Shown here one piece after another: positions 5,789 to 59,413 of a stretch of DNA of 64,000 nucleotides; positions within the stretch are counted from its first letter, which is position 1, and each line of letters begins with the position of its first letter. Origin of the DNA: Arthrobacter pullicola (GTDB lineage: Bacteria > Actinomycetota > Actinomycetes > Actinomycetales > Micrococcaceae); NCBI RefSeq assembly GCF_014836875.1, contig NZ_JACSQC010000003.1:294619-358618 (forward strand), in the 5' to 3' direction. The notes under the pieces are model-generated. The model saw only the letters and a program-made list of their open reading frames with translations, did no database searches and had not been told where the DNA came from. Both the position numbers and the translations under genes were made by a program.

Positions 5789-5844
5789 CGTGGCTCCGGA
5801 CAGGGTTCCTTGTCCCGGCCGGGCTGCCCGGACTGCGGGCGGGA

Positions 5845-5873
5845 CTGACACTGCGGTGCCGGGAGCATATGGT
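5845..5873 (+). promoter_or_regulatory. Promoter of PAC2 gene, leaderless geometry
   Basis: CTGACA (5845-5850, one mismatch to TTGACA) and TATGGT (5868-5873) are separated by exactly 17 bases, and the -10 ends six bases before the GTG at 5880. Transcription would start at the first base of the start codon. Confidence 0.65.
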
Positions 5874-5879
5874 GAATCT

Positions 5880-6761
5880 GTGAGTTATACCGATAAGACC
5901 CCAGCCGCTGGCCTGCAGGATTTCTTTGGCGGCGGCTCCGGAGAGCGGGTCACCGTGATGCTGGCTGCCTTCGAAGGCTGGAACGACGCCGGAGAGGCCG
6001 CCAGTGACGCCCTGAACTTCCTCTCCCTGTACTGGGACAGCGAAAAGATCGCCGGGATCGACGCCGACGAATACTACGATTTCCAGTTCACCCGCCCTGC
6101 GATCGAGCGGAACGCGGCAGGCAAGCGCAGGATCAAGTGGCCCACCACACGGATATCCCGGGCAGAGGTCCCGGGAACCAACCTGGACCTGATCCTGGTT
6201 TCCGGTGTTGAACCGTCCTACAAATGGCGCGCCTACACGGCTGAGGTCATTGGGCTGGCCAAGGAACTCGACGTGGACTGCATAGTGCTCACCGGGGCGC
6301 TGCTGGCCGATGTTCCGCATACCCGCCCCATTCCGGTGACTGCCACCTGTGAGGAAGAAGACCTGAGGGAACACCTCGGCGTTGAGTCCTCGCAGTATGA
6401 GGGGCCCATCGGAATTGTGGGTGTCCTGGCGGAAGTGGCCAATTTGGCCGACATTCCCACGTTGTCGCTCTGGGCGGCGGTGCCGCACTATGTGGGGCAG
6501 CCGCCGTCGCCCAAGGCGCAGCTTGCTTTGCTGCACCGTTTGGAAGAGCTGCTGCAGACCCCGATCGACACCGCCGTCCTGACGGAGGAAGCCGAGGCAT
6601 GGGAACGCGGAGTGGATGAACTTGCCACGGAGGACCCGGAAATAGCGGCCTACGTGCGGCAGCTGGAGGAAGCCAAGGATACGGCTGAGCTGCCCGAAGC
6701 AACCGGCGAATCGATTGCACGGGAGTTTGAGCGCTACCTTAAGCGGCGGCGCCGGGACTAG
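5880..6761 (+). CDS. PAC2-family protein
   Basis: The 293-aa product belongs to the PAC2 family named after the proteasome assembly chaperone 2 fold; the actinobacterial members have no firmly assigned biochemical role. Visible features are an N-terminal AAFEGWNDAG segment, DFQFTRPAIER, a central VSGVEPSYKWRAY block and the GALLADVPHTRP segment, then an acidic helical C-terminus. A mycobacterial relative is also found in the region of the Pup-proteasome genes, so a link to proteostasis is tempting but only inference. GTG 5880 is chosen because a full promoter places the transcript start there; upstream in-frame codons lack any ribosome site. Confidence 0.87.
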   Translation: MSYTDKTPAAGLQDFFGGGSGERVTVMLAAFEGWNDAGEAASDALNFLSLYWDSEKIAGIDADEYYDFQFTRPAIERNAAGKRRIKWPTTRISRAEVPGTNLDLILVSGVEPSYKWRAYTAEVIGLAKELDVDCIVLTGALLADVPHTRPIPVTATCEEEDLREHLGVESSQYEGPIGIVGVLAEVANLADIPTLSLWAAVPHYVGQPPSPKAQLALLHRLEELLQTPIDTAVLTEEAEAWERGVDELATEDPEIAAYVRQLEEAKDTAELPEATGESIAREFERYLKRRRRD

Positions 6762-56502: not shown

Positions 56503-57522
56503 GTGCCGAAGACACCCGCACCTGCCCCAGCCACCCGAAACCCGGAGACTTCCACGGGTCCCGCGACCAGCCGCCTGGTCCGGTCCCTGGCGGTCGCCAC
56601 CCTGGTGGCCAACATCGGCATCGTTGTCACGGGCGGAGCCGTGCGTCTCACTGCCTCCGGCCTCGGCTGCCCGGAATGGCCGCTCTGCACCCCGGATTCC
56701 CTGATTACGACGCCGGAAATGGGTGTCCACGGAATCATCGAGTTCGGCAACCGGCTGCTGACCTTTGTGCTGGCAGCCATTGCCTTCGCGATGGTGGCCT
56801 CGGTCTGGAAGGCACGCTCTGCCCGTCCGGACCTCTTCTGGCTTTCCGTGGCTGCCCTGGCCGGCATCCCCGCCCAGGCCCTGATCGGCGGCATCACCGT
56901 GTGGACAGGCCTGAACCCGTGGGTGGTAGGACTGCACTTCATTGTTTCCATGGTGATCATCTGCGTGGCCGTGGTCCTGGTGAACCGGGCCTGGCTCAGC
57001 GGCTCCAGGCTTGCTGCTGCCGAGGCACCGCTGGCCGGGCGCACCCTGCGTCCGGTGGTCTGGGCCATTGCTGTCCTTTCTGCCATCACGGTGATCCTCG
57101 GCGTCATCGTGACCGGCTCCGGCCCGCACGCCGGAGACCATGGCGCAGCACGCAACAACCTGGACCCTGACCTGGTGACCCGTCTCCACGTGGTTCCGGT
57201 CTACCTGCTGGTCTTCGCCGTCGCTGTTGCGCTGTACCTGGTGTACCGCCGCGGTGCCGACCGGCGTCTCCGGCGTTCGCTGCTCATCTTTACAGTTGTT
57301 CTGCTGGCCCAGGCTGTCATTGGCTACACCCAGCACTTCCTGCACCTGCCGATCGTCCTGGTGGCGCTGCACATGCTCGGTGCCTCGATGATGACCGCTG
57401 CGGCGGCCCACGTCGTCTACACCGGCCTCTCACGGAAGGTTCCGGGCGGCGCGGTGTCTGAAGCAGCGGTTTCCGATGCTGCAGTTTCCGGTGCTGCGTC
57501 AGGTGATGCTGCCCGGGGCTAA
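56503..57522 (+). CDS. ctaA: Heme A synthase CtaA
   Basis: Membrane enzyme that oxidises the C8 methyl of heme O to make heme A for cytochrome aa3. The ~339-aa product has eight membrane segments and heme-ligand regions: the Cys-containing loop LGCPEWPLC, HGIIEFGNRLLT, LHFIVSM, HAGDHG, RLHVVPVY and ALHMLGASM. GTG 56503 has GGAG about nine bases upstream; ATG 56488 is an alternative that overlaps the permease. The last 20 residues are a low-complexity AAVS-type repeat. It is separated from ctaB by 946 bp of non-coding DNA. Confidence 0.93.
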   Translation: MPKTPAPAPATRNPETSTGPATSRLVRSLAVATLVANIGIVVTGGAVRLTASGLGCPEWPLCTPDSLITTPEMGVHGIIEFGNRLLTFVLAAIAFAMVASVWKARSARPDLFWLSVAALAGIPAQALIGGITVWTGLNPWVVGLHFIVSMVIICVAVVLVNRAWLSGSRLAAAEAPLAGRTLRPVVWAIAVLSAITVILGVIVTGSGPHAGDHGAARNNLDPDLVTRLHVVPVYLLVFAVAVALYLVYRRGADRRLRRSLLIFTVVLLAQAVIGYTQHFLHLPIVLVALHMLGASMMTAAAAHVVYTGLSRKVPGGAVSEAAVSDAAVSGAASGDAARG

Positions 57523-57590
57523 CCCGGTACCCGCTGAACCCCTTCCGGTTTAGTGTCTGTGCGGCGCTGACGGAGGGAGCGGTTACCTGC

Positions 57591-57651
57591 TGGAACGGCT
57601 GGAACCACTGGAACGGCTGGAACGGCTGGAACCTGCTGGAACGGTTGGAAC
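57591..57651. repeat. 9-bp tandem repeat (seven units)
   Basis: Seven TGGAAC cores occur at 57591, 57600, 57609, 57618, 57627, 57637 and 57646, i.e. a 9-bp period with one slip to 10. The unit is close to TGGAACGGC. It lies 68 bp after the ctaA stop. Confidence 0.88.
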
Positions 57652-57705
57652 CTTGCTGGTCCGGCGTGACCGGCTTGCCGTCCCTCTTGCTGTGAACGTA
57701 TTTGT

Positions 57706-57739
57706 CAAAGGCCTCTCCGCGTCTGCGGGGAGGCCTTTG
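57706..57739. terminator. Terminator-like hairpin after ctaA
   Basis: CAAAGGCCTCTCCGC (57706-57720) pairs with GCGGGGAGGCCTTTG (57725-57739) over 15 bp with one wobble and a 4-base loop. It likely ends ctaA transcription and could also stop ctaB transcripts. Confidence 0.65.
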
Positions 57740-57753
57740 GGGTTTCTGGGGGT

Positions 57754-57813
57754 GGGCGCGCGGGGGCTGTGGGGATGGGCGCGCGGGGGCTGTGGGGATG
57801 GGCGCGCGGGGGC
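57754..57813. repeat. 23-bp tandem repeat, 2.6 units
   Basis: The unit GGGCGCGCGGGGGCTGTGGG plus GAT occurs at 57754-57776 and 57777-57799 without a mismatch, followed by 14 bases of a third unit. It is a G-rich minisatellite. Confidence 0.9.
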
Positions 57814-57851
57814 GGCTGGGCTGGAGCTGTGTACCAGCTGCCAGGTGCCAG

Positions 57852-57923
57852 GTTTCCCACTAAATGTGACTGCCGTGGCCCGTGGGGTCACTCTCGGTTA
57901 CTCCTGTAACTGAGAGTGGGAAC
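57852..57923 (-). repeat. 72-bp inverted-repeat element, copy A
   Basis: Ends are GTTTCCCACT and AGTGGGAAC. Inside is a strong hairpin, CACTCTCGGTTAC/GTAACTGAGAGTG with one mismatch. Read on the minus strand, the copy starts GTTCCCACTCT, has GAGTGACCCCAC at position 31-42, and ends AGTGGGAA, as in copy B. No transposase is associated. Confidence 0.6.
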
Positions 57924-58006
57924 GGTGGATCCGCGTGGATCCGTGTGGACCGCGATTGCCGGATGAGTGCCACAGATGCCGGGCCGGAACGTCACCAGAC
58001 AGCGCT

Positions 58007-58046
58007 CAGACAGTGCGGGACCCGGGCAGACACTGCGGGACCCGGG
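58007..58046. repeat. 20-bp direct tandem repeat (two units)
   Basis: CAGACAGTGCGGGACCCGGG (58007-58026) and CAGACACTGCGGGACCCGGG (58027-58046) differ at one base. Confidence 0.9.
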
Positions 58047-58069
58047 CAGCAAGCCTTCCTATGACACGG

Positions 58070-58141
58070 GTTCCCACTCTTTGTTCACTCCTGGGCCTGG
58101 AGTGACCCCACCAGCCCCAGGAGAATACACACAGTGGGAAC
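58070..58141 (+). repeat. 72-bp inverted-repeat element, copy B
   Basis: Ends GTTCCCACT (58070-58078) and AGTGGGAAC (58133-58141) are perfect 9-bp inverted repeats, extended outward to GACAC/GTGTC with two mismatches. The core GAGTGACCCCAC lies at element position 31-42. Inside, CACTCC/GGAGTG forms a hairpin. It is the opposite orientation to copy A, 146 bp away. Confidence 0.6.
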
Positions 58142-58190
58142 GTGTGTCGCCGTATCGGCGGGGACGAAACAGGCGAGGCTGGGGTGATGG

Positions 58191-58265
58191 GATTCGCCGG
58201 GTTACGGCACCAGCAGCGGACGGACTTACGGCCAACGGATTCGCCGGATTCGGCACCAGCGGCGG
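58191..58265. repeat. Diverged 28/29-bp direct repeat
   Basis: 58191-58219 and 58238-58265 both read GATTCGCCGG(G/A)TT(A)CGGCACCAGC and then (A/G)GCGG, about 25 of 29 bases alike. Confidence 0.7.
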
Positions 58266-58468
58266 GCCCTTTCGGGAGTTACAGTGTTCGGACACCAGCA
58301 CCGCCCCGGGGTCCACTGGTCTTCCAGAGACATCGGGAAGAATCACCCGCGAATCAGACGCAACTTCAGAAGACAGCCCGTTACAGACCGGCACACAGCC
58401 CCTGAGGCAGCTAACGGCTGGAACCAGCACGCAGCCACCCGCCGGGCACAGGCCGGAAAAAGGACGGG

Positions 58469-59413
58469 CTAGAAGAGCGGACCGCCGACGAACGGGTCGA
58501 TGGCGAGGGCAATGAAGAGGATCGTGAGGTAGCTGATCGAGCCATGGAAAACCTTCATGGCCGACTTGTCGCTGACCTCGCCGCGCTGGGCACGGCCGTG
58601 CAGGCGGTGCGTCTCGGCAAGGAACCAGATACCGCTCAGGGCAGCACCGATGGTGTAGACCCAGCCGGCACCGCCGACCGGGACCAGAAGCAGGGAGCAG
58701 ACCACGGTGGCGTAGGCGTAGAGCACAACCTGGACGGAGACGAGCTTGGCACCGGCCACGGCACCGAGCATCGGTACCGAGGCATTGCGGTAGTCCTCGC
58801 CGTACTTCATGGACAGCGGCCAGTAGTGCGGCGGGGTCCAGAGGAAGATGACCATGAACAGGATGACTGCCGGCCATTCGACGGTGTTTGTTACGGCAGC
58901 CCAGGCGATCAGCACCGGCATGCAGCCGGCAGCGCCGCCCCAGACAATGTTCTGGGTGGTCCGGCGCTTGAGGATCAGGGTGTACAGGACCACATAGAGC
59001 AGGATGGCGCCGAGGCCAAGCAGCCCCGTCAGCGGGTTCGCGCCGAACCACAGGAGGGCAATCGAAACGATGCCCAGCACCCAGCCGAAGACGAGGGCCT
59101 CACGCGGCGTCACCTCACCGGTGACCAGCGGGCGCTTCTCGGTCCGGCGCATCAGCCGGTCCATGTCCCGGTCAATGTAGCAGTTGAAAACGCCGGCGCT
59201 GGCCGCTGCCAGTGCGCCGCCGACCATGGTTGCCACCATGAGCCAGACAGAGGGAATGCCGCCCTGGGCAAAGAACATGGTGGGAAGCGTGGTAACCAGC
59301 AGGAGTTCAATGACGCGCGGCTTCGTCAGCGCAACGTAGGCCCGAAGCTTACGTCCCGCGCTCATTTTTCCGGTGTAGACCGGAACCTCGGCGGGGGCAT
59401 GCTGCGTACTCAC
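58469..59413 (-). CDS. ctaB: Protoheme IX farnesyltransferase (heme O synthase) CtaB
   Basis: Membrane prenyltransferase that adds farnesyl to heme B to form heme O, the substrate of CtaA. The 314-aa protein has about eight to nine membrane segments, the Asp motifs [20 protein letters not shown] (with NxxxDxxxD pattern) and the second region [36 protein letters not shown]. The start codon is GTG (59411-59413). It diverges from tkt over 385 bp and converges on the repeat-rich interval. Confidence 0.94.

Follow-up and report, generated by a model that had tools for sequence, protein, structure and literature searches.

Two inverted copies of a palindromic element, A and B, in the gap between ctaA and ctaB are, on balance, probably members of a dispersed family of dyad-symmetric sites at which a putative protein would bind double-stranded DNA. 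In each element, 9-bp direct repeats with the consensus RWGTKRCNG form two arms that face each other head to head, with TCCCA and TGGGA as caps. The family is scattered between genes, keeps its 9-bp register and its dyad, has a fixed length in a second genus, and its arms are not kept paired.

Copies in the ctaA-ctaB gap

The bare pattern TTCCCACTN{40,70}AGTGGGAA matched 11 places in the host genome (G000, 3.62 Mb) versus none for the reversed control, and these 11 copies, A and B among them, were used to build model R1. Model R2, which is sequence-only, was built from 38 other copies of the host genus (g1) with A and B excluded, and model R3 was built from copies of another genus (g27), which includes genomes G152 and G054. 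Copies A and B both lie in the 946-bp gap between the convergent genes ctaA and ctaB of the window, by which we mean the whole 64-kb stretch of DNA analysed. The features are as follows.

56503-57522, plus strand: ctaA (COX15-CtaA, Pfam PF02628), convergent neighbour
57842-57934, minus strand: copy A, full family unit, about 93 bp (R1 match at G000:C9:352460-352552, minus strand, 67.2 bits)
57854-57922, minus strand: core of copy A, TTCCCA..TGGGAA, 69 bp (pattern match)
57889-57918, no strand: inverted repeat within one arm of copy A, 13-nt arms and 4-nt loop
58059-58152, plus strand: copy B, full family unit, 94 bp (R1 match at G000:C9:352677-352770, plus strand, 94.4 bits)
58071-58140, plus strand: core of copy B, TTCCCA..TGGGAA, 70 bp (pattern match)
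58071-58076, plus strand: left cap TTCCCA of copy B (right cap TGGGAA at 58135-58140)
58083-58084, plus strand: first GT mark in the left arm of copy B (mirror AC mark at 58127-58128)
58469-59413, minus strand: ctaB (UbiA family, Pfam PF01040), convergent neighbour

Model R2, to which neither copy contributed, recovered copy A at 57846-57927 (E = 6.2e-15) and copy B at 58063-58151 (E = 9.4e-20) in the window. In the family alignment, units with their flanks aligned at about 92-94 bp (GACACGNGTTCCCA...TGGGAACGCGTGTC); the outer motif was absent from copy A, and copy B was 80-82% identical to copies at other loci. The preliminary description had placed A on the minus and B on the plus strand of this convergent gap, both starting GTTCCCACTCT and carrying GAGTGACCCCAC at element positions 31-42, and all of this was borne out, with GAGTGACCCCAC occurring exactly twice within the 64-kb window. 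The length of 72 bp that it gave to both copies proved to be an artefact of the drawn ends, as the core lengths and the unit of about 92-94 bp indicate. Its 13-nt arms in copy A were recovered (57889-57901 with 57906-57918, 92%), and the orthologue in sister genome G005 has the identical sequence at this inverted repeat; its 6-bp arms in copy B gave way to 38-nt arms at 79% (58063-58100 with 58111-58148).

Other repeats were observed in the same gap. Four short tandem repeats lie at 57589-57651, 57747-57813, 57925-57954 and 58007-58049, with units of 9, 23, 10 and 20 bp in that order. At 57706-57739, 184 bp past ctaA, a 15-nt inverted repeat (93%) has a terminator-like shape, and the terminator scan was silent on it. 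In G005 (L112), the ctaA-ctaB gap contains one A-type copy and three of B type spaced by about 210 bp, an apparent segmental tandem duplication.

Size and distribution of the family

The first reading of these copies as a family of small dispersed inverted repeats that share conserved ends and a conserved core was upheld by further copies in the genome and their presence in sister species. A lack of both was looked for; instead, R1 gave 69 strand matches in the host genome, which represent 36 places at E<=1 and 35 at E<=0.01 (11 had built R1), and 25 of the 29 genomes of the genus had a match at E<=0.01, the other four (G007, G013, G023 and G024) having none at that threshold. Several of the host places were arrays; for instance, four units lie about 100 bp apart at C7:434870-435266 and two abut at C11:19091-19275. 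A local regulator of ctaA/ctaB was rejected, since the copies are dispersed and only 11 of the 29 genus genomes had a match in this gap. One exact pattern, run against named genomes, was found only in Arthrobacter gallicola and A. luteolus (7 stretches), a result from which records of the host genome itself are possibly omitted.

Among 245 genomes of the taxonomic family, R2 matched 23 at E<=0.001, including 17 from the host genus. In g27, G152 had 17 matches and G054 had 5, and the remainder were one or two weak matches apiece in three g16 genomes and one g6 genome. The full count in G152 was 79 strand matches, or 40 places. Over the Micrococcales, R3 matched 9 of 396 genomes at E<=0.001; the matches in G043 were stronger (best E 1.9e-8), and those in G403, G430, G339, G529 and G586 were weak (E 2e-4 to 5e-4). 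By eye, the weak matches in G403, G430, G339 and G529, which belong to other families of the Micrococcales, contain TGTGRC-type 9-bp units, a hint of a wider range that is suggestive only, and the match in G586 (L221) looks like chance. The 57-bp site pattern was not enriched among 394 genomes of the class, where it matched 65 and the reversed control matched more often; this counts against protein docking. Three near-perfect 57-bp palindromes, TGTCACTGGTGAAACGG..CCGTTTCACCAGTGACA, were observed on contigs C15, C16 and C17 of G717, a distant member of the Actinomycetes.

An origin from phage or plasmid was rejected on searches of plasmid, phage and viral-contig records. One host copy had no match among plasmid and phage records, one g27 copy had a single 21-base match among plasmids (E 1), and the exact 57-bp pattern had no match among viral records. 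The bare ends matched 14 viral contigs, with R1 scores of at most 25.8 bits; the sole contig above 20 bits, L344, carries a distinct TGTTCCCACT repeat and falls outside the family. The TGTTCCCACT repeats of L344 are clustered in direct and inverted order at about 5829-6075, beside a gene that we take to resemble a phage replication gene. No description of such a family was found in the mainly open-access literature covered, PMC12306157 included.

Caps, length and 9-bp register

The g27 sample comprised 38 copies, 35 fetched from the 40 places in G152 and three of the five G054 copies; outside it were five unfetched G152 places, two G054 copies whose caps are altered (L159 and L182), and a further G054 place (L230) found by R3 only and without a cap match. 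With 65 to 85 bp permitted, the span from TCCCA to TGGGA was exactly 77 bp in 35 of 35 fetched G152 copies and in 3 of 5 from G054. In the remaining two the left cap reads CCCCA or TGCCA, and the spacing, as we read it, is likewise 77 bp. The symmetrised g27 profile, mirrored about position 38, consists of TCCCA with TGT-type marks at 10, 19 and 28 and an outer CCCAGYTR, and the g27 copies that show the cap had been selected by it. In 38 diverse g1 copies, CCCA and GGGA were invariant and the outer T was present in at least 90%. In the arms of the host copies, column 12 was G in 72 of 72 and column 13 was T in 63 of 72.

Column-frequency similarity between positions of the g27 arms peaked at a shift of 9 (0.284; next best 0.071 among shifts 5-15), and the information profile had period-9 power (permutation p 0.019). 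The host copies also peaked at shift 9 (0.121, then 0.077 at shift 10), less sharply because their cores range from 68 to 70 bp. In clade-2 arms the value at shift 9 (0.178) was close to that at shift 6 (0.161). The caps differ by lineage: the group of the host genome has TTCCCA, the sister clade in most cases has GTCCCA together with an outer motif of GCAC type, and g27 has TRTCCCA with CCCAG. The core is longer in g27 than in g1 by 9-11 bp, roughly one helical turn, and the extra length, as placed from the alignments, appears to sit at the centre.

Between-copy identity of the spacers in G152 was at chance (0.330 versus 0.339 expected), and the best pair, at 0.70, equalled the shuffled 95% value. 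The marks and the length have thus outlasted the divergence of the spacers.

Genomic context

Of the 35 fetched G152 copies, 33 lay outside the genes predicted by a simple caller and two overlapped predictions. The gaps were indifferent to gene direction (9 ++, 8 +-, 8 -+, 7 -- and 1 unclassed). Among 21 gaps classed by hand in the host genome, only one was divergent, against 8 convergent and 12 tandem, so divergent gaps seem under-represented there and indifference to direction is clear only in G152. The 40 G152 sites were consistent with a uniform spread (KS p 0.39 and 0.46). No common family that could point to a partner protein was found among 66 proteins flanking the G152 sites, in which 117 Pfam families were matched and none in more than two proteins; the 25 shown included core genes, with no transposase among them. 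When 65 host locus proteins were compared with 97 from G152, there was one close match (86% identical, tgt family, site-flanking in both genomes) and one further match at 26% identity, a count of shared flanking proteins that is about at chance level by our own estimate.

A putative docking site for a protein array

A dyad of fixed length made of 9-bp repeats, with free spacers and arms that are not kept paired, would suit protomers that assemble as an array on double-stranded DNA. Each site would present two arms, aimed at the dyad from both sides and each with about three 9-bp direct repeats, and at each end a TCCCA cap with a lineage-specific outer motif. Small protomers of an array-forming DNA-binding protein could load head-to-tail, one per 9-bp unit, from the caps inward, and the two arrays would meet at the dyad, each site thereby becoming a single bent nucleoprotein complex. 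Among known proteins, the candidate binder is best modelled on a winged-helix protein of the BldC/Xis type, and a ribbon-helix-helix protein is possible. We infer the binding, the binder and the role of the sites from these features. The likeliest role would be chromosomal (DNA architecture, insulation or anchoring) rather than control of single genes, because the 36-40 sites are spread over the genome and, in G152, indifferent to the direction of genes. A wider reading is possible but tentative: the Micrococcaceae, and perhaps other Micrococcales, might have an undescribed chromosome-wide system in which each genome carries some 36-40 large docking sites between its genes. The caps, specific to a lineage, would change in concert in most copies of a given genome, a candidate array-forming protein would occupy the sites and shape or partition the chromosome, and selection would act against cruciform folding. 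If a protein does read the 9-bp register, about forty sites per chromosome would offer a handle on genome organisation or insulation in actinobacteria, and since the caps vary by lineage, the co-evolution of site and protein could be followed.

Chromosome-organising sites such as parS, matS and the SlmA/Noc sites are sequence-specific, short and single, with tens dispersed over a chromosome. The present family likewise has tens of dispersed sites per chromosome, but its sites are about 92-101 bp long with several repeated marks, and its binder is putative. A solved precedent for such arms is offered by sites of the MerR-like winged-helix protein BldC of Streptomyces, on which every protomer occupies one 9-bp direct repeat, the protomers follow one another head-to-tail and the DNA is bent; repeat number varies between sites, which include promoter sites with two and four repeats (PMC5859096). 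Related filaments are described for RdfS and Xis (PMC11963761). In contrast to the AATTnnnn(C) consensus given for BldC, the family has RWGTKRCNG, two opposed arms, TCCCA caps and 36-40 dispersed intergenic sites. This difference in consensus counts against the docking of such a protein, and membership of the BldC system is not claimed on these sequences.

Conservation, turnover and spread of copies

Orthologous elements of the host genome and the sister genomes G005 and G012 were compared in 22 of 26 pairs (20 with G005 and 2 with G012, tandem neighbours included); the four dropped pairs, three of them with the more distant G012, had no spanning alignment. Marks differed at 22 of 571 sites (3.9%) and spacers at 93 of 948 (9.8%; p 1.3e-5), a difference that is an upper bound because the orthologues were fetched as matches; copies found by models that reward marks likewise overstate the constraint on marks. 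The outer 12 bp differed at 46 of 518 sites and the flanks at 477 of 4014 (11.9%), with no significant difference between spacers and flanks (p 0.079). In aligned orthologues the element cores were often more alike than the flanks, with exceptions such as copy A against G012 (0.65) and array units absent from G005.

Individual sites are dispensable, as copies present in one genome are missing from its relatives, and this also counts against protein docking. At 11 host loci chosen for having no known partner in G005, a copy was present in G005 at 3 of the 10 loci located and in G012 at 2 of 9, scored by the cap pattern, which would miss diverged copies. Ten elements traced from the sister genomes gave a similar picture, several being missing in relatives. 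Host copies at unrelated loci are up to 90-91% alike over the element, so the copies have spread and some copying is recent. Such identity at separate loci is what a mobile element would give, and it too speaks against docking as the sole account.

The main rival is a MITE-like non-autonomous element, in which the arms would be back-to-back terminal inverted repeats, the 9-bp marks the sites of a transposase, and the transposase encoded elsewhere. ERIC is an example of a MITE. The enterobacterial RU repeats are also described as MITEs (PMC2759123). The family resembles such elements in being short, dispersed, non-coding, built as inverted repeats and present or absent between relatives, and at L084 the host genome and G012 form a near-precise filled and empty pair. 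At other loci, however, the genomes differ over much of the gap, and where an element is absent the whole gap has often shrunk to about 80 bp or less (not at L089, where it is 733-763 bp), rather than leaving a clean empty site. No target-site duplication was detected in the 38 g27 copies, and the 33 g1 copies examined, a set without A, B and C13:848, gave a single marginal result: 4 of 33 shared a 3-bp match where 0.58 were expected, which is within what so many trials, roughly a thousand boundaries, would yield. A MITE decaying neutrally would accumulate indels, whereas G152 has kept length and marks with spacers at chance, and the arms are not selected to pair. The MITE-like reading in the preliminary description holds for the dispersal of the copies and fails for a clear target-site duplication, and we consider it unlikely as an explanation of the family. 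Protein docking and mobile spread may both be true in part, with sites spread by copying and then kept by use.

A module of about 226 bp with two elements was observed in tandem at G000:C9:372572-373386 and, about 75% alike, at G000:C12:192377-192605; the flanks of the latter are just 41 bp apart in G005 and 57 bp in G012.

REPs are short foldable hairpins. REP/BIME-like repeats, kept or spread by a RAYT-type tyrosine transposase and secondarily bound by host proteins, would share with the family its intergenic palindromes, its tandem and mosaic arrays and its many copies per genome; a second palindromic family that sometimes lies nearby also favours this reading. The unit of about 92-101 bp is several times longer than a REP, however, and is set by the 9-bp register rather than by a hairpin, pairing of which is not favoured, so that this origin is quite improbable. 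The second palindromic family is about 98 bp long, apparently with four units of about 22 bp (TGGGACTTTCCTGCC..), and was found near copies of the first at seven loci. Its positions in the host genome (locus, then coordinates within the locus) are as follows.

L087, 1361-1449: second palindromic family
L078, 1259-1359: second palindromic family
L080, 606-703: second palindromic family
L081, 1376-1482: second palindromic family
L082, 1143-1234: second palindromic family
L083, 1163-1275: second palindromic family
L085, 1525-1622 and 1780-1877: second palindromic family

Pairing of the arms

The preliminary description took the stems of these copies to have diverged while staying paired and saw their shape as possibly under selection, and neither view was supported. 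In the 38 ungapped g27 copies, 69.2% of the positions in 45 mirror pairs were standard pairs, versus 72.5% (sd 0.7) after column shuffling, and covariation was 0.130 versus 0.170; the shuffles equalled or exceeded the real value in 500 of 500 cases for both. Pairing in the true mirror register exceeded that in slid registers (33.6-42.3%) because the motifs are dyad-symmetric. Native g27 copies folded more weakly than chimeras of their halves (-31.2 versus -33.7 kcal/mol, p 0.017), and so, not significantly, did the host copies (27 distinct copies left from 36 after removal of near-duplicates). In 24 distinct host copies, reduced from 36 in the same manner, pairing at variable columns was 0.52 within a copy versus 0.49 between copies (permutation 0.138), and no excess of covariation was found in the host copies. 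The shuffle and chimera tests speak against the arms as a selected hairpin, and the conserved frame is instead a series of 9-bp sequence marks. Arms that avoid pairing and fold no better than chimeras are compatible with a protein that reads double-stranded DNA, and they illustrate that a palindrome may resemble a selected hairpin though pairing between its arms is not maintained.

A structured RNA or hairpin (small RNA, attenuator or bidirectional terminator) under selection for shape, for which one could cite the predicted fold of each of the 36 host copies (-11.8 to -44.6 kcal/mol), the position of most classed host copies downstream of a gene and the excess of pairing over slid registers, is scarcely credible beside these tests, the equal use of divergent gaps in G152 and the lack of RNA signals at A and B. 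No Rfam family reached its gathering score at 57500-58500 (best mir-4874, 26.4 bits versus a cut-off of 70), and a scan of 57450-58520 gave no promoter or T-run terminator consensus at either copy. The sole terminator site in that scan was located at 58347-58363, away from A and B.
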